From assembly GCF_003987185.1 (NCBI RefSeq), contig NZ_PIPS01000001.1:1240001-1304000 (forward strand): a stretch of 64,000 nucleotides of DNA, written 5' to 3'. The notes under the pieces were generated by a model. That model saw nothing but the letters and a program-made list of their open reading frames with translations, was not told the origin of the DNA and searched no databases. Both the position numbers and the translations under genes were made by a program. Positions 25,644-58,649 of this stretch are shown here, piece after piece. Numbering within the stretch: position 1 is the first letter of the stretch; each line of letters begins with the position of its first letter. This DNA is from Idiomarina aquatica. Lineage in GTDB: Bacteria > Pseudomonadota > Gammaproteobacteria > Enterobacterales > Alteromonadaceae.

Positions 25644-26162
25644 TTACTGGCAGGAGCCGCAACAAAAATCTTTGCCGTGTGTTGGTGTACTTTCGCGCTC
25701 GACGAAAAGCACGGTATTTTCTAATTCAATGTGCTGGTTAAGATCGTCGACCAACTCGCCAAGTCCCCGGTATAAAGCTTGCCAACTACCACAGGCACCC
25801 TCTGGTAAGGTTAAATTATTGGTCAGAGCGCTGATCTTGTTAATGTCCTGCTCGTGCTGAACATGCTCTTCTTCCATCACTGAAATCGGGCCGCTGGGAT
25901 AAATATCGCGCGCCAGCATCGGAAATAAAATTTGTTCTTCCTTCATCATGTGGCTTTCCAGCTCATGAAGCATATTATCCAGGTGCTCAGCCAGGCCGTG
26001 CGGAGCCTCATCATGGTCGCCGTGCACTTCTTCGATTTTCAGCGCCAGTTGCTTTAATTCAGGCAACTGTTGGCGATGCACCTGATGGAAACGTTCAACG
26101 ATAAATTCAATCAATTCGCGATTTGATTTTCCGGACCACTCACTGACAATGCTTGCTGTCAT
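25644..26162 (-). CDS. dnrN: Hemerythrin-like nitric oxide response/iron-sulfur repair protein
   Basis: A 172-residue di-iron hemerythrin-like protein of the DnrN/YtfE/ScdA group. The histidine/glutamate pattern fits a four-helix di-iron site: FHQVHRQQLPEL, HELESHMMKEEQILFP, EEEHVQHEQD and DLNQHIELENTVLFV. A C-terminal CCGSC cluster is present; the N-terminal ScdA domain is partly absent. Such proteins are induced by nitric oxide and help repair damaged iron-sulfur centres. The gene is divergent from norR and carries its own sigma-54 promoter with three NorR-type sites. Confidence 0.85.
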   Translation of the reverse strand: MTASIVSEWSGKSNRELIEFIVERFHQVHRQQLPELKQLALKIEEVHGDHDEAPHGLAEHLDNMLHELESHMMKEEQILFPMLARDIYPSGPISVMEEEHVQHEQDINKISALTNNLTLPEGACGSWQALYRGLGELVDDLNQHIELENTVLFVERESTPTHGKDFCCGSCQ

Positions 26163-26205: not shown

Positions 26206-26222
26206 TGCACAATTCAGGCCAA
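26206..26222 (-). promoter_or_regulatory. Sigma-54 promoter of dnrN
   Basis: On the minus strand TTGGCCTGAATTGTGCA: GG at 26220-26219, ten bases, GC at 26208-26207, the -24/-12 pattern. Transcription would begin near 26195, 30-odd bases before the dnrN ATG. The TTGGCCTG half is identical to that of the norB promoter. Confidence 0.8.
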
Positions 26223-26263
26223 CTTCTACCCCCTTGTGGATATTGAGGTTGCAGGCCAGCACG

Positions 26264-26316
26264 GTATGATTCACCCAGTGAATAAGGGTACATTTAACCG
26301 ATAGTGTAAAAATAAC
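26264..26316. promoter_or_regulatory. Three NorR enhancer sites between dnrN and norR
   Basis: Three GT-N7-AC sites: 26264-26274 (GTATGATTCAC), 26288-26298 (GTACATTTAAC) and 26306-26316 (GTAAAAATAAC). Read toward dnrN they are spaced 18 then 24 bp, with 54 bp from the last site edge to the promoter GG, identical to the norB array. The outermost site ends one base before the norR start codon, so NorR binding there would also repress norR. Confidence 0.8.
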
Positions 26317-35772: not shown

Positions 35773-36270
35773 ATGGATACCAACAAAGGGGTAGCGCGCG
35801 CGTTTCAAGGGTTTGCTATGGCCCATCAATTCATCCCTGCCAGCCTTAAATTAAAACCGATTGAGTTGCTGTTAAATCGACTTTTTGCGACCGAAATCGA
35901 CGCCGATGAACTTGATTTTTTGAGGGACAAATCCGTCGCTATTGAGGTATTGGATGTATCCCTGTCGTTCTCTGTGAGCCTAGTCAATAAACGTCTTCGC
36001 GTGCGTTCAGAAGCGGCTTCGGCCGATGCACGGATGAGCGCCAACAGCACCGATTTCTTGTTATTAATTCATAATAAGGTGGATCCCGACACACTGTTCT
36101 TTCGGCGTCAGCTACGCGTCGAAGGTAATACGGAACTGGGACTATCCCTTAAAAATTTCCTTGACACTATTGAGGTAGATCAAAAGCTGCCGCAGCCGTT
36201 ATTCCGCCTCGGTGATAAACTGGCGTCCTATTTACAGCAAAGAAAAGATGAAATAATAGTCTCATCGTAA
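35773..36270 (+). CDS. ubiT: Anaerobic ubiquinone accessory factor UbiT (SCP2 domain)
   Basis: A 165-residue protein with one SCP2 lipid-binding domain (~35-130). UbiT replaces UbiJ in anaerobic ubiquinone synthesis and presents the lipid intermediates. Its position divergent from ubiUV is the usual arrangement. hemN follows after 34 bp in the same direction. Confidence 0.88.
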   Translation: MDTNKGVARAFQGFAMAHQFIPASLKLKPIELLLNRLFATEIDADELDFLRDKSVAIEVLDVSLSFSVSLVNKRLRVRSEAASADARMSANSTDFLLLIHNKVDPDTLFFRRQLRVEGNTELGLSLKNFLDTIEVDQKLPQPLFRLGDKLASYLQQRKDEIIVSS

Positions 36271-42221: not shown

Positions 42222-42274
42222 GTTAATTTAACCCTGTCGGTAAAATAAACCCCAACCAGTATGGTAGGAATCAC
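42222..42274 (+). promoter_or_regulatory. Three NorR enhancer sites upstream of norB
   Basis: GT-N7-AC sites at 42222-42232 (GTTAATTTAAC, within a 15-base perfect palindrome), 42240-42250 (GTAAAATAAAC) and 42264-42274 (GTAGGAATCAC). Spacings 18 and 24 bp; 54 bp from the last site's outer edge to the promoter GG. E. coli norVW also has three NorR sites. Confidence 0.85.
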
Positions 42275-42315
42275 CTATACTCATAAAAATTCGTTTTATT
42301 TCATATGGTTAACTA

Positions 42316-42332
42316 TTGGCCTGTTAATTGCT
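42316..42332 (+). promoter_or_regulatory. Sigma-54 promoter of norB
   Basis: TTGGCCTGTTAATTGCT: GG at 42318-42319, ten bases, GC at 42330-42331, close to TTGGCAC-N5-TTGCT. Start of transcription near 42342, with a leader of about 48 bases and AAGGAGG before the ATG. Confidence 0.88.
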
Positions 42333-42389: not shown

Positions 42390-44630
42390 ATGGCCGGGTA
42401 TCGTAAGTTATGGTGGATACTCATTTGTATCCTCGCTATTACCTTTGGCATTTTGGGGTACTTTGGTAAAGAAGTTTATCGTGAGGCTCCCCCTATCCCT
42501 GATCAGTTTGTTACCCCGCAAGGCAAGGTTATCGCCACGGAGGATAGTATTCTGGACGGGCAAACCGCATGGCAGTCTGTGGGCGGCATGCAGTTGGGCT
42601 CTATTTGGGGCCACGGCGCGTATCAGGCGCCCGACTGGACAGCCGATTGGTTGCATCGCGAGCTGATCGCCTGGTTAGAAATTCGCGCGCAGGAAGTCTT
42701 CAATCAACCCTATGACTCACTGACAGGCGCTCAGCAAAACCAGCTGCAGTATGAACTGAAGCAAGAGTATCGTACCAATACTTACGATAAAGACAGCAAC
42801 CGCGTGATCTTGAGTGATCGCCGGGTACAAGCCATTGAGCAGACCGCAGATTATTATTCACGCCTGTTCAGCGATGATCCTGAGCTTCGCCCTACCCGTG
42901 TCAGCTACGCGATGAAGGAAAACACGTTACCTTCGGCAGAACGCCGCGCGGTAATGACCGATTTCTTCTTTTGGACCGCATGGGCAGCCGCAACCGAACG
43001 CCCGGATGCAGACGTTACCTATACCAACAACTGGCCTCACGAGCAGTTAATCGACAACGTTCCGAGCGCAGAGAACATCATCTGGTCGATCGTCAGTGTG
43101 ATTTTGCTGATTGCTGGTGTTGGCGGATTGATTTGGGGCTGGGCATTCCTGCGTAATCACGACGAGGAAGACCCCGCCGCACCCAAAGAAGACCCGTTAA
43201 CCAAGATTAAACTGACGCCATCGCAAAAAGCGTTAGGTAAATACTTATTTATCGTTGTCGCACTGTTCTCACTGCAAGTATTACTGGGTGGCTTTACCGC
43301 GCACTATACGGTTGAAGGCCAGGAGTTTTATGGCATCGACGTATCACAGTGGTTCCCGTATTCATTGGTCAGAACCTGGCACATTCAAGCCGCGCTGTTC
43401 TGGATCGCGACGGGATTCCTGGCGGCAGGTTTATTTTTGGCCCCCATCATTAACGGTGGCAAAGATCCGAAATACCAGAAACTGGGCGTCGACATCTTAT
43501 TCTGGGCATTAGTGTTGGTGGTCGCCGGTACCTTTATCGGTAACTATCTTGCCATCGCACAGATCATGCCTGAGCATTTGAACTTCTGGCTCGGTCACCA
43601 AGGTTATGAATACGTCGATCTGGGACGTCTATGGCAGATTGGTAAATTCCTTGGCATCGTCTTCTGGCTGGTACTGATGATGCGCGGCGTTGCCGGTGCG
43701 TTCAAGGTAAAAGGCGATAAGAACCTATTGGCGTTATTCACCGCTTCCGTGGTTGCCATCGGGCTGTTTTACGGCGCTGGTTTCTTCTACGGTGAACGTA
43801 CCCATATTTCTATCATGGAATACTGGCGCTGGTGGATTGTCCACCTGTGGGTAGAAGGATTCTTTGAAGTTTTCGCCACCGCCGCACTCGCGTTCATCTT
43901 CCACAATATGGGGCTGGTATCACGCCGTATGGCGACCGTGGCTTCACTGGCTTCAGCATCGCTGTTCATGCTTGGTGGCGTTCCCGGTACCTTCCACCAC
44001 TTGTACTTCTCTGGCACCACCACGCCGGTGATGGCCGTTGGTGCGACGTTCTCAGCGCTGGAAGTGGTACCGTTGATTGTGCTGGGCTGGGAAGCCTGGG
44101 AAAACTACAGCCTGCAGAAGAAAGCCGACTGGATGCAACGCCTCAAATGGCCACTCATGTGCTTCGTCGCGGTTGCCTTCTGGAATATGCTCGGCGCCGG
44201 TGTGCTTGGTTTCATGATCAACCCACCGATCTCGCTCTATTACGTCCAAGGCCTGAACACCACGCCAACCCACGCGCACGCAGCGCTGTTCGGGGTCTAC
44301 GGCTTCCTGGCACTGGGCTTTGTGCTACTGGTACTGCGCTACATTCGTCCAACTCTTCAGTTTGACGACAAGCTCATGAAAATGGCGTTCTGGACCATGA
44401 ACATCGGCTTGTGCCTGATGCTCTTCACCAGCTTGTTGCCGGTTGGCTTCATTCAGTTCTACGCCGCCGCGACCGAAGGTCTCTGGTATGCACGTAGCGA
44501 AGCCTTCATGCAACAACCGCTGCTGCAAGGCCTGCGTTGGTTCCGTACCGTTGGCGATATGATCTTCATCGTCGGTGCGCTAGCCATCAGCTGGCAAGTG
44601 GTTAAAGGCTTGAAGCACAAGTCCGCTTAA
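42390..44630 (+). CDS. norB: Quinol-dependent nitric oxide reductase (qNor)
   Basis: A 746-residue single-subunit reductase. The N-terminal ~240 residues hold one membrane helix and the cytochrome-c-like fold without heme motif (LDGQTAWQSVGGMQLGSIWGHG); the NorB core of about twelve helices follows. Metal-ligand histidines appear in RTWHIQAALFW, WWIVHLWVEGFFEVF (with its Glu), GTFHHLYF and THAHAALFGVYG. It reduces nitric oxide to nitrous oxide using quinol. Controlled by NorR and sigma-54 by sequence. Followed by a chemoreceptor gene on the same strand. Confidence 0.96.
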   Translation: MAGYRKLWWILICILAITFGILGYFGKEVYREAPPIPDQFVTPQGKVIATEDSILDGQTAWQSVGGMQLGSIWGHGAYQAPDWTADWLHRELIAWLEIRAQEVFNQPYDSLTGAQQNQLQYELKQEYRTNTYDKDSNRVILSDRRVQAIEQTADYYSRLFSDDPELRPTRVSYAMKENTLPSAERRAVMTDFFFWTAWAAATERPDADVTYTNNWPHEQLIDNVPSAENIIWSIVSVILLIAGVGGLIWGWAFLRNHDEEDPAAPKEDPLTKIKLTPSQKALGKYLFIVVALFSLQVLLGGFTAHYTVEGQEFYGIDVSQWFPYSLVRTWHIQAALFWIATGFLAAGLFLAPIINGGKDPKYQKLGVDILFWALVLVVAGTFIGNYLAIAQIMPEHLNFWLGHQGYEYVDLGRLWQIGKFLGIVFWLVLMMRGVAGAFKVKGDKNLLALFTASVVAIGLFYGAGFFYGERTHISIMEYWRWWIVHLWVEGFFEVFATAALAFIFHNMGLVSRRMATVASLASASLFMLGGVPGTFHHLYFSGTTTPVMAVGATFSALEVVPLIVLGWEAWENYSLQKKADWMQRLKWPLMCFVAVAFWNMLGAGVLGFMINPPISLYYVQGLNTTPTHAHAALFGVYGFLALGFVLLVLRYIRPTLQFDDKLMKMAFWTMNIGLCLMLFTSLLPVGFIQFYAAATEGLWYARSEAFMQQPLLQGLRWFRTVGDMIFIVGALAISWQVVKGLKHKSA

Positions 44631-54350: not shown

Positions 54351-54677
54351 ATTAAGACTCCCAGTCTACGCCTAACAGCTAGTTCAATAGATGACCGGCA
54401 GTTTGCTCGATCAAAACACGTAAAGCCAGTAGGGTAATTGCCTCGAAAAGCGAATAGGGGTATCAAAAATACCCCTTTTGGGAGATGAGGGTAGTTTTTT
54501 AAGCTATTGATTATTAATAGTTTTATTTTTTCCAATTGAGAGTGGTTTTCATTACCCACTATTTTCGATAAAAAAGGGGTAGCCCAAAGTTACTTAGCCT
54601 CTCGTCGTCTGTTAATATACATTCCACTTACATGTATTTTGCGCTGCAGAGTTTCGGAGCAGGATTGCCATAGGCGT
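54351..54677. promoter_or_regulatory. narG-narX divergent control region with NarL-type heptamers
   Basis: A 327 bp AT-rich gap. It has AGGGGTA (54456-54462) and TACCCCT (54470-54476) as an inverted pair 7 bp apart, TACCCAC (54553-54559) and AGGGGTA (54575-54581). A dyad CTATTGATTATTAATAG at 54504-54520 contains the FNR half-site TTGAT, without a good second half. NarL and FNR control is inferred. Confidence 0.6.
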
Positions 54678-56456
54678 ATGAGAACAACATCCATTATCAA
54701 TCTTTTTCGGGTTTCACTCGCCCTTATCGTTATTGTTGCCAGCGGTTCGGCACTCACCGGTTTTCTGCTGCTGGAAAAATCAGAAAAGGATGCCGCTGTC
54801 ATTAATGCCGCCGGTATGCACCGGATGCTCGCGTTTGAGTTATTAGCAGCCGACCAGGCCAGCAACACCGACGAAGTCGAGCGCATCAGTGGTGATATTA
54901 ATCAGCGCTGGCAGCACCCCTTGCTTGAATTTCACACCAACGATCCCGCTTCCGACGCCTCCACCATCGCGGTTACCGCTCGGCAGCACTGGCAACGTAT
55001 CGAACGACAGTTATCTGCTGCCGAGCCGATCAGTTATACGTCGGTAAAGGATTATGTTGAGCAGCTGCAAAGCTTTGTATTGGCGCTGCAACATAAATCC
55101 GAGCAGCGCATGACCCTGGTGAGGGGCGCCCTGGCGGTGTCCGCCTTTATTATCGTGGCGGTGTTTTTCTTCCTGCTGTATATCCTGCGCCGGCGCATCG
55201 ATGAGCCATTGAACCATGTTATGAGTGTTTGCCGACGGTTGATTCAAGGTGACTTTACTGCTCGCGCGCACATTGAATCCAACGACGAAATTGGCCAGTT
55301 GTCTAACGCATTGAATAAAATGTCGGACACCGTCAGTTACTTTTATGGCGGCTTAGAGCGCCGGGTTGAACAACAAACCGCGGAACTGAGTAGAAAAAAC
55401 AAGGTGCTGTCGTTTCTCTACGACACCGCACGCTCGATCATTGTCCACAGCTACGATTATGCCAATTATCAAGACGTCATTGAGCGTCTCTATGAAGTTG
55501 GCGAAGTCGACGATATCGAACTGTGTCTGTTGACCGAAGAAGGCAGCCGTCCGTTTTTACAATTACAGCCGCGGCCGACCTCGAAAGAGCCTTGTAGCAG
55601 CCAAAGTTGCGCGACCTGTATCAAGGCGGGCGCCGGTGCTTCTATTATTGACGATAAGATGGTCTACCGGTTTGTCTTAAAACGGGAAGATCAAGAGTAT
55701 GGCGTATTGATTGTCCGTTGCGAACCCGGCACCCAGTTAGAAGGCTGGCAACAACAGCTGATGAGCTCGACGGCCGATCAATTGGCACTGTCACAGAGTT
55801 TAAAAACCGAGGAAGAACAAGTCCGGCGCCTGGCACTGATGCATGAACGCACGGTCATTGCACGCGAACTTCATGACTCCCTGGCGCAGGCATTATCCTA
55901 TTTGAAAATACAGGTTACACGGTTACAAAAGGCCGTCGAGAAACAAGACCGGGCGGTCATTGATGACGTGTCTACCGAACTCCGCGAAGGTCTTAACTCG
56001 GCTTACAAACAGTTGCGCGAACTGCTTACCACGTTCCGCCTGAAAGTTGATGGTTCAGGCTTGTACAACGCTTTGCAAACGACGGTGAAACAGCTGTCTG
56101 AGCAAAGCGATCTGGCAGTGCAATTAGACTACCGTCTGAATGACATTCCACTGGCACCTCACGAAGAAATTCACTTGCTGCAGATCATTCGTGAAGCCAG
56201 TCAAAACGCGGTCAACCACAGTCAGGGTGAGCATTTGCATATTACCCTGACACAACCGGCGGGATCCGACATTGAACTGACCATCAGTGATGACGGTATT
56301 GGTATTCCCGAAAATGCTGAGAAGCTCAATCACTACGGTCTGGCGATTATGCAGGAACGAAGCCGAAACCTCGGTGGTGAACTCGAAATGCGTCAGCGGG
56401 AAGAAGGCGGGACCATTGTCTGGTTCCGCTTCACGCCGGACTACTTGTTGCAATAA
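54678..56456 (+). CDS. narX: Nitrate/nitrite sensor histidine kinase NarX
   Basis: A 592-residue kinase: TM1 ~7-30, periplasmic four-helix sensor with the P-box INAAGMHRMLAFEL, TM2 ~150-172, HAMP, a central module with a cysteine cluster (CSSQSCATC, residues 306-314), HisKA_3 with the phospho-acceptor H399 in ARELHDSLAQAL, and a HATPase domain (GDDGIGIP-like SDDGIGIP). ATG 54678 is preferred to TTG 54639. Separated from narL by an opposing transporter gene. Confidence 0.93.
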   Translation: MRTTSIINLFRVSLALIVIVASGSALTGFLLLEKSEKDAAVINAAGMHRMLAFELLAADQASNTDEVERISGDINQRWQHPLLEFHTNDPASDASTIAVTARQHWQRIERQLSAAEPISYTSVKDYVEQLQSFVLALQHKSEQRMTLVRGALAVSAFIIVAVFFFLLYILRRRIDEPLNHVMSVCRRLIQGDFTARAHIESNDEIGQLSNALNKMSDTVSYFYGGLERRVEQQTAELSRKNKVLSFLYDTARSIIVHSYDYANYQDVIERLYEVGEVDDIELCLLTEEGSRPFLQLQPRPTSKEPCSSQSCATCIKAGAGASIIDDKMVYRFVLKREDQEYGVLIVRCEPGTQLEGWQQQLMSSTADQLALSQSLKTEEEQVRRLALMHERTVIARELHDSLAQALSYLKIQVTRLQKAVEKQDRAVIDDVSTELREGLNSAYKQLRELLTTFRLKVDGSGLYNALQTTVKQLSEQSDLAVQLDYRLNDIPLAPHEEIHLLQIIREASQNAVNHSQGEHLHITLTQPAGSDIELTISDDGIGIPENAEKLNHYGLAIMQERSRNLGGELEMRQREEGGTIVWFRFTPDYLLQ

Positions 56457-57890: not shown

Positions 57891-57919
57891 TGGGGTAACA
57901 TTCTACCCATAAGGGGGTA
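57891..57919. promoter_or_regulatory. NarL/NarP-type 7-2-7 palindrome upstream of narL
   Basis: TACCCAT-AA-GGGGGTA at 57904-57919 is a 7-2-7 inverted heptamer pair, the preferred NarL/NarP target, with a further heptamer TGGGGTA at 57891-57897. It lies between the divergent transporter and narL, and may serve both. Confidence 0.7.
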
Positions 57920-57998
57920 TTTTTAATGTATTTAGTGCGCAGTTGTGGCAACCTATACGCTATTCAAGCACGATAAATGTACGTTCAAGGAGAGACCC

Positions 57999-58649
57999 AT
58001 GTCGAGTGAAGCGGCCAGCATCATGTTAGTTGATGATCACCCGTTACTGCGTAAGGGACTGAAGCAACTGATTGCCATGGAAGATGACATGCAAGTTGTT
58101 GCCGAGGCCAGTAATGGCAAAGATGCAATAGAACTCGCGGCGCAGCATGATCCCGATTTAATTGTGTTGGATCTTAATATGCAGGGCATGGACGGTATCG
58201 AGACGTTGAAAAAACTGCGCGATTCCGGCGTGACCTCGCGCATCATTATGCTTACCGTCAGTGACGCCGATGACGATGTGGTGGCGGCAATTACTAACGG
58301 CGCCGACGGCTACCTACTAAAAGACATGGAGCCGGAACAGCTGCTTGAACAAATCCACCGCGCGGTTACCGGTAAAATGGTACTGAGCGAAGCGATTACC
58401 GAAATTCTTGCTACGGCTCTGCGACAGCCAGCAAAATCACCGTCATCACAGTTGAGCTCGCTGACCAACCGTGAGTACGAAATTTTGAGCCTCATCGCTA
58501 AAGGCATGAGCAACAAAGTGATTGCCCGCGAACTCGATATCTCCGACGGCACCGTTAAAGTCCACGTTAAACATCTTCTCAAGAAACTAGGACTTCGATC
58601 CCGTGTTGAAGCCGCCGTATGGATGGTGAATCAACAAGGGGAGCAATAA
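57999..58649 (+). CDS. narL: Nitrate/nitrite response regulator NarL
   Basis: A 216-residue regulator: receiver domain ~7-122 with phosphorylated D58 in IVLDLNM and the conserved Lys in YLLKDMEP; LuxR-type helix-turn-helix ~150-212 (LTNREYEILSLIAKGMSNKVIARELDIS in part). ATG 57999 has AAGGAGAG; an earlier GTG lacks support. The stop overlaps the moeA start (TAATG), so they are cotranscribed. Confidence 0.95.
   Translation: MSSEAASIMLVDDHPLLRKGLKQLIAMEDDMQVVAEASNGKDAIELAAQHDPDLIVLDLNMQGMDGIETLKKLRDSGVTSRIIMLTVSDADDDVVAAITNGADGYLLKDMEPEQLLEQIHRAVTGKMVLSEAITEILATALRQPAKSPSSQLSSLTNREYEILSLIAKGMSNKVIARELDISDGTVKVHVKHLLKKLGLRSRVEAAVWMVNQQGEQ

Follow-up and report, generated by a model that had tools for sequence, protein, structure and literature searches.

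The genes dnrN and norB of the 64-kb window (the whole stretch of DNA analysed here) very probably are two members of one NorR regulon, answering the same nitric oxide (NO) signal from promoters whose spacing is kept for function. Both control regions carry three GT-N7-AC sites followed by a sigma-54 element, just as had been claimed in the original prediction, and a reading of the regions together with a regular-expression scan of both strands reproduced the coordinates to the base (Table 1). Namely, the sites of the dnrN array, on the minus strand, start at 26316, 26298 and 26274, with the promoter GG at 26220, and those of the norB array, on the plus strand, start at 42222, 42240 and 42264, with the promoter GG at 42318; the spacings of 18, 24 and 54 bp are common to both. 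The two sigma-54 elements both start TTGGCCTG, both have the form GG-N10-GC, and each agrees with 8 of the 11 positions of what we take to be the consensus. Most sites of the two arrays read GGT-N7-ACC, site 1 of dnrN being GGT-N7-ACA, that is, a site with an imperfect outer arm.

Table 1. Genes, predicted sites and promoter elements discussed in the text, with positions in the window.
Feature	Positions	Strand	Basis or remark
RIC/YtfE/DnrN-type hemerythrin-domain protein, dnrN	25644..26162	-	domain search
sigma-54 -24/-12 element of dnrN, TTGGCCTGAATTGTGC	26207..26222	-	region reading, regex
NarL-type 7-2-7 box, TATCCACAAGGGGGTA	26227..26242	-	3/14 mismatches to the 7-2-7 consensus
predicted norR -35 hexamer, TTGAGG	26243..26248	+	TTGA and 16-bp spacer in 8/8 genus genomes (own included)
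NorR-type site 3 of dnrN	26264..26274	-	encloses predicted norR -10 hexamer
predicted norR -10 hexamer, TATGAT	26265..26270	+	inside NorR site 3
NorR-type site 2 of dnrN	26288..26298	-	region reading, regex
NorR-type site 1 of dnrN, GT-N7-AC	26306..26316	-	adjoins norR start codon
norR, 511 residues	26318..27853	+	GAF, sigma-54 AAA+, Fis-type HTH; above curated NorR cut-off
FNR/DNR-type box, TTGATCAGTGTCAA	42154..42167	+	1 mismatch; between norB and divergent genes to its left
NorR-type site 1 of norB	42222..42232	+	region reading, regex
NorR-type site 2 of norB	42240..42250	+	region reading, regex
NorR-type site 3 of norB	42264..42274	+	region reading, regex
degenerate IHF-type site of norB	42299..42311	+	2 mismatches to WATCARNNNNTTR
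sigma-54 -24/-12 element of norB, TTGGCCTGTTAATTGC	42316..42331	+	region reading, regex
single-subunit nitric oxide reductase, norB	42390..44630	+	fused NorB cytochrome c-like domain and COX1
NarX-like sensor kinase	54639..56456	+	HAMP, HisKA_3, HATPase; name NarX from context
NarL-type 7-2-7 box before narL, TACCCATAAGGGGGTA	57904..57919	+	1 mismatch
NarL-like response regulator	57945..58649	+	Response_reg, GerE; true start likely the ATG at 57999

The NorR protein that would act at these sites exceeds the cut-off of the NorR model (703.5 against 476 bits) and keeps all of the residues R75, D96, D99, C113 and D131, which are the iron ligands of E. coli NorR according to the part of a review that we consulted. 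Its sigma-54 contact motif reads GAFSGA, a conservative change from the GAFTGA of E. coli NorR. In its own genome, which also encodes sigma-54, there is one full-length NorR match, the seven other matches being 32-48% identical and devoid of the N-terminal part. Turning to the first target, DnrN has a hemerythrin-like di-iron domain (PF01814, E 1.1e-20) and lies below the curated NCBIfam equivalog cut-offs (200.4 against 254 bits for YtfE, 163.9 against 204.7 for RIC and 138.2 against 300 for DnrN). Because these cut-offs are missed and the domain search found no ScdA_N domain in the protein, we call it RIC-like; the missing domain is probably the reason for the low scores. Of the eight genus DnrN proteins, seven were viewed (L001, L010, L011, L012, L013, L015 and L016), and all of these end in DFCCGSCQ, and the DnrN of a related genome, G035 (L017), has an N-terminal LDFCCGG in addition to a C-terminal CCGSCQ, so to speak at both ends; the genus proteins may have retained a cysteine motif at the opposite end. 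As for the mechanism, we propose that NorR dimers would occupy the three sites before each gene, that NO bound to the GAF-domain iron would bring about an active AAA+ assembly of NorR, and that this assembly would open sigma-54 polymerase at the promoter element, which lies 54 bp further downstream. In this way, a single NO signal would elicit both the reduction of NO by NorB and the repair of NO-damaged iron centres by DnrN. The spacing, we suggest, would be kept because three dimers need a set arrangement relative to one another and to the promoter. For E. coli NorR, three sites have been described as essential, with a ring assembling on that DNA (PMC2941729, seen in part).

Would the same spacing be found in close relatives? 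This had been named beforehand as the test that could refute the prediction, and the spacing held. In a search of 60 genomes (own included), 19 gave a NorR match at E 1e-100 or better; of the 19 genus genomes, eight (own included) carry norR, and exactly these eight carry norB, dnrN being compared among the norR-bearing genomes. If distances are taken from the first G of each site to the promoter GG, dnrN reads 96/78/54 in seven and norB in six of these eight genomes (own included), which are not independent of each other, G004, G015 and G016 being near-identical in both promoters. The exceptional dnrN promoter, that of G005, reads 108/78/54, with 30 instead of 18 bp between sites 1 and 2, and the remaining two norB promoters deviate by no more than 1 bp (96/78/53 in G001 and 95/77/53 in G005). 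Across all 16 genus promoters, the positions of sites 2 and 3 vary by no more than 1 bp. What is more, a fourth NorR-type site is found at 114, 18 bp beyond site 1, in five of the eight norB promoters (G003, G004, G006, G015 and G016; loci L041-L045). The norB array of the genome G036 is ambiguous (88/68/44).

To see this geometry in a wider frame, 57 norR upstream regions were scored by script, coming from the genus, other relatives, E. coli K-12 and 23 named GTDB records, the latter being the first 23, with near full-length NorR, of 80 loci; the other 57 of these loci, nearly all of which match the AAA+ part alone or are more distant, were left out. A divergent array scoring above 24 is present in 34 of the 57 norR loci scored, and none above this threshold was found beside the other 23. 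In 228 mononucleotide shuffles, the 99% point of the score was 25.6 and the maximum 28.8, and four of the 34 arrays (L079, L081, L093 and L159, with last gaps of 67 in one, 66 in two and 65 in one) are within this range of noise. Counted without any weighting for descent among related loci, the last gap is 52-55 bp in 21 arrays (8 of them from the genus), 65-68 in 10, 100-101 in 2 and 118 in 1, with none of the 34 at 56-64 bp. Of the 26 arrays that are not from the genus, 22 have 24-26 bp between sites 2 and 3, and 24 have 16-22 bp between sites 1 and 2. Judging from these sequences, two unequal gaps, of about 20 and 25 bp, look general for NorR arrays, and the distance to the promoter appears to vary by lineage. 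In particular, the E. coli norV array measures 21/24/67, and in the related genome G035 the last gap is 54 at dnrN and apparently 65, with a poor -12, at norB. The predicted fixed enhancer geometry can thus be upheld within this lineage, but not NorR-wide, and since the spacing varies among NorR homologues, a strict need for 18/24/54 is not implied. We also considered steps of one helical turn between the distance classes and rejected them, as the main two classes differ by approximately 12-13 bp, not 10.5. Pfam assignments of eight genes downstream of the arrays gave three of RIC/YtfE type, three of Hmp type, one of NorV type and one NnrS. One metagenome-assembled genome labelled Pirellulales (L084) has norR, a RIC-type gene and a 98/79/54 array with one imperfect site, suggesting transfer or mis-binning.

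One could argue that the common spacing is just a passive product of chance and ascertainment, GT-N7-AC being such a weak pattern that arrays may be findable anywhere. Indeed, loose GT-N7-AC triples (16-33 bp) arise by chance about once per strand, with 0.95 expected and 3 observed on each. However, when 200 sequences of 64 kb were simulated by an order-1 Markov model, with one strand scanned in each, the mean numbers of 18/24 triples and of full arrays were both printed as 0.0, there being not a single 18/24/54 array in any of these strands, while the window holds one on each strand and no others. Moreover, the spacing is conserved across eight genomes, and the arrays stand before two NO genes, one of them beside norR. 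The simulation and the conservation in the genus together refute a chance origin, to which we give practically no credence, and they bear out the original argument that the exact agreement is unlikely to be fortuitous; the opposite orientation of the two loci, which had been counted as additional weight, carries none of its own. Alternatively, the explanation may lie in descent: the promoter of one gene could have been duplicated in front of the other, for instance as an ancestral dnrN-norB operon broke up, in which case the spacing was inherited and not selected. In the genome G059, from another family, norB does follow directly after dnrN behind a single array, and outside the genus it is rare for two arrays to agree exactly in every spacing (3 of the 325 pairs that the 26 arrays form; in 37 of the 325, each spacing agrees within 1 bp). 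That said, the linkers that join site 3 to the -24 element in dnrN and norB are, within one and the same genome, no more alike than shuffled ones (identity of 12-33%, P from 0.17 to 0.96 in eight genomes), and with linkers so unlike, a recent promoter duplication was rejected as the sole cause. What is more, both promoters have retained the spacing even as their inter-site sequence has diverged, and selection is therefore needed whatever the origin. For this reason, inheritance in place of selection strikes us as unlikely, and we prefer the reading of one regulon with a functionally maintained spacing.

What goes beyond the original prediction is that the two promoters differ in their linkers, with an IHF-type sequence in norB and a NarL-type one in dnrN, and that the predicted promoter of norR crosses the dnrN array. 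On the strand opposite this array, a sigma-70-like pair (TTGA and two bases, 16 bp, TANNAT) is seen in all eight genus genomes, 47 bp before the norR ATG, or 59 in G005, where sites 1 and 2 are 12 bp further apart. The predicted -35 abuts the NarL-type box, whose centre is near -43 from the predicted start, a usual position for an activator. Since the dnrN array covers the predicted promoter, with the -10 inside site 3, bound NorR should limit its own synthesis; taken together, the overlap of promoter, box and site 3 would predict autorepression by NorR as well as a nitrate input to norR, and the linker box next to this promoter suggests a priming of norR by nitrate. One arrives in this manner at a circuit of two layers, in which NarL, sitting beside the norR -35, would raise norR under nitrate, NorR would then await NO, and norB alone would add bending by IHF, giving the two targets a different strength or timing. 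For scoring these linkers, we took the IHF string to be WATCARNNNNTTR and the NarL 7-2-7 consensus to be TACYYMT-N2-AKRRGTA. The NarL-type box of dnrN/norR, located just before the -24, is at the same place in 8/8 genus genomes with 2 or 3 mismatches of 14, and 3 or fewer mismatches occur in 1.3-2.9% of shuffled linkers, in which the scan was four bases shorter than in the real ones. In the window, the box is identical to the one before narL at 14 of 16 positions, and in 100 simulated windows the average count of equally close places came out, as printed, at 0. The box before narL itself is present in 8/8 genus genomes with 0-2 mismatches, and therefore the NarL motif used in this genus appears to be the usual one; the genes for NarX- and NarL-like proteins are within the window. 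Furthermore, when five diverged representatives are compared, identity in the dnrN linker amounts to 80% in the half containing the box, as opposed to 48% in the other half. The IHF-type sequence of norB, on its part, starts exactly 19 bp before the GG, with varied free positions, and matches WATCARNNNNTTR perfectly in six of the eight genus genomes (own included), with one mismatch in G005 and two in the window. Perfect matches anywhere are found in 0.5-1.6% of shuffled linkers, and none of the eight dnrN linkers of the genus has a match with 2 or fewer mismatches. NarP sites, finally, were predicted in 2005 before dnrN, hcp and norB in two Pasteurellaceae (PMC1274295, consulted in part).

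On the other side of the balance, a match to the NarL motif with 3 mismatches also occurs in 3 of the 8 norB linkers, at varied places, and at 30 places in the window, so that 3 mismatches alone mean little, and in the dnrN/norR box position 3 of the left heptamer is never the expected C. As it nearly touches the -24, the box could repress dnrN instead, and a part of the conservation of the linker is that of the norR -35 itself. The sigma-70-like pair is weak, agreeing with 9 of 12 consensus positions in a scoring made without a chance control. The IHF-type site of the window is degenerate, and by the stricter string WATCAANNNNTTR the match is perfect in 5/8 genomes. No NarL-type box was found in the dnrN/norR linker of six other loci tested, G035 having one further downstream. 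All in all, we consider the two-layer circuit doubtful. The same holds for a joint reading, which we put forward tentatively and with little confidence. Namely, the dnrN-norR region may be a composite nitrate/NO switch, in which NarL by the norR -35 would prime the NO sensor at the onset of nitrate respiration, and NorR would shut its own promoter via site 3 and, on meeting NO, fire two sigma-54 promoters of equal geometry and different linkers (IHF-type in norB, NarL-type in dnrN), timing repair and reduction apart, with the arrays of the family standing at a few discrete distances from the -24. Concerning IHF, the stricter string does occur in print, IHF is drawn at the E. coli norVW promoter according to the legend of a review, and a passage of another paper mentions a second IHF site there. 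Two further boxes can be put on record here. A NarL-type 16-mer, TACCAACAAAGGGGTA, at 35778-35793 overlaps the ORF start of a UbiT-like gene, the true start of which may be later. Also, all eight genus genomes, but not G035, have an FNR/DNR-type box with 1 mismatch at 236-293 bp ahead of norB (236 in the window); instead of norB, its target may be the divergent genes, by eye those of an anaerobic ribonucleotide reductase.

How many promoters would the one NorR of this genome control? A sequence-only profile built from the 16 genus promoters ranks dnrN (E 5.8e-21) and norB (9.5e-18) as the top two matches in the own genome, both being members of the training set, and these are followed by matches at 0.037, which is the norB array read on its reverse strand, and at 0.089. 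It is therefore unlikely that this genome has a third promoter built in the same way. Among 17 hand-picked loci from outside the training set, the profile detected arrays in 12 at E up to 1, two of these 12 (L018 and L048) being one promoter, and none in the other five, E. coli among these. With 5/17 loci missed by the profile and 23/57 norR loci having no divergent array above the threshold, a differently built third target could escape. A candidate at contig C3:130061 was rejected, with 14.6 bits and no clear triple by eye, and so was an array before nnrS, as a sigma-54-linked triple is absent from eight genus loci and G035 (10 further nnrS loci were outside the scan). A DNA search with the dnrN promoter matched only itself. 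The prediction that one NorR drives both dnrN and norB is thus strengthened by the single full-length NorR, the presence of sigma-54 and the two strong profile matches; as a claim, it is not new in kind.

Namely, its core is already known, in that NorR control of a DnrN/YtfE-type gene and norB has been published for Cupriavidus/Ralstonia, as far as the parts of the sources consulted go. NorR sites were reported in 2005 before norA, which is DnrN/YtfE-like, and norB in Ralstonia (PMC1274295), and control of norA and norB by NorR in C. necator is cited in a paper of 2022 (PMC9045102), where the R. solanacearum norA, a relative of YtfE/DnrN, falls 15-fold without norR and norB is, in the part seen, not under NorR control. 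Coregulation of dnrN and norB is therefore what one would expect of a regulon of this known kind. As in Cupriavidus necator/Ralstonia, we find NorR, tandem GT-N7-AC sites, sigma-54, and a DnrN/YtfE-type gene and norB as the apparent targets, but here dnrN and norB are 16 kb apart behind separate arrays, with dnrN divergent from norR, and, unlike in R. solanacearum, NorR dependence would not be limited to the first of the two genes. The E. coli norR-norVW region resembles ours in its divergent norR, its three sites, its sigma-54 element and the 24 bp that separate sites 2 and 3, and the review draws IHF there as well; it differs in its overall spacing, in its target, the flavorubredoxin NorV, and in its sites, GTCA-N3-TGAC as opposed to GGT-N7-ACC. 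In Pseudomonas stutzeri, tandem NorR sites and a sigma-54 promoter were likewise predicted in 2005 for dnrN, the other target with NorR sites being hmp, while norR was not found in that unfinished genome (PMC1274295, in the part consulted). The two Pasteurellaceae share with our case a predicted nitrate-type response-regulator box before dnrN, but are described there as having neither NorR nor the other NO regulators, whereas our putative box is in a NorR region beside the predicted norR promoter (PMC1274295, in part). Pseudomonas sp. Irchel s3b2 (L071), finally, has a NorR 62% identical to ours and a 97/78/53 array before a gene of RIC/YtfE type, with a second array, 97/77/53, before a Crp/Fnr-type regulator (by eye) and not before norB. 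This second array, at 1026-1138 of L071, would place NorR above a Crp/Fnr-type regulator.

In the literature examined, we did not meet the lineage-kept spacing, the four-site variant, the discrete classes of distance or the overlap of NarL and norR elements that we hypothesise, nor, in what was a limited search, a link from nitrate sensing to the production of the NO sensor, and we do not claim that it is absent from print. What the genus offers is a natural collection of 16 promoters from eight genomes, with one NorR per genome apparently acting on two targets of the same spacing. As the set includes a 30-bp variant and variants with four sites, it makes the rigidity of a bacterial enhancer directly testable. 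If the NarL reading is true, nitrate sensing would, in these bacteria, be tied to the production of the NO sensor itself.
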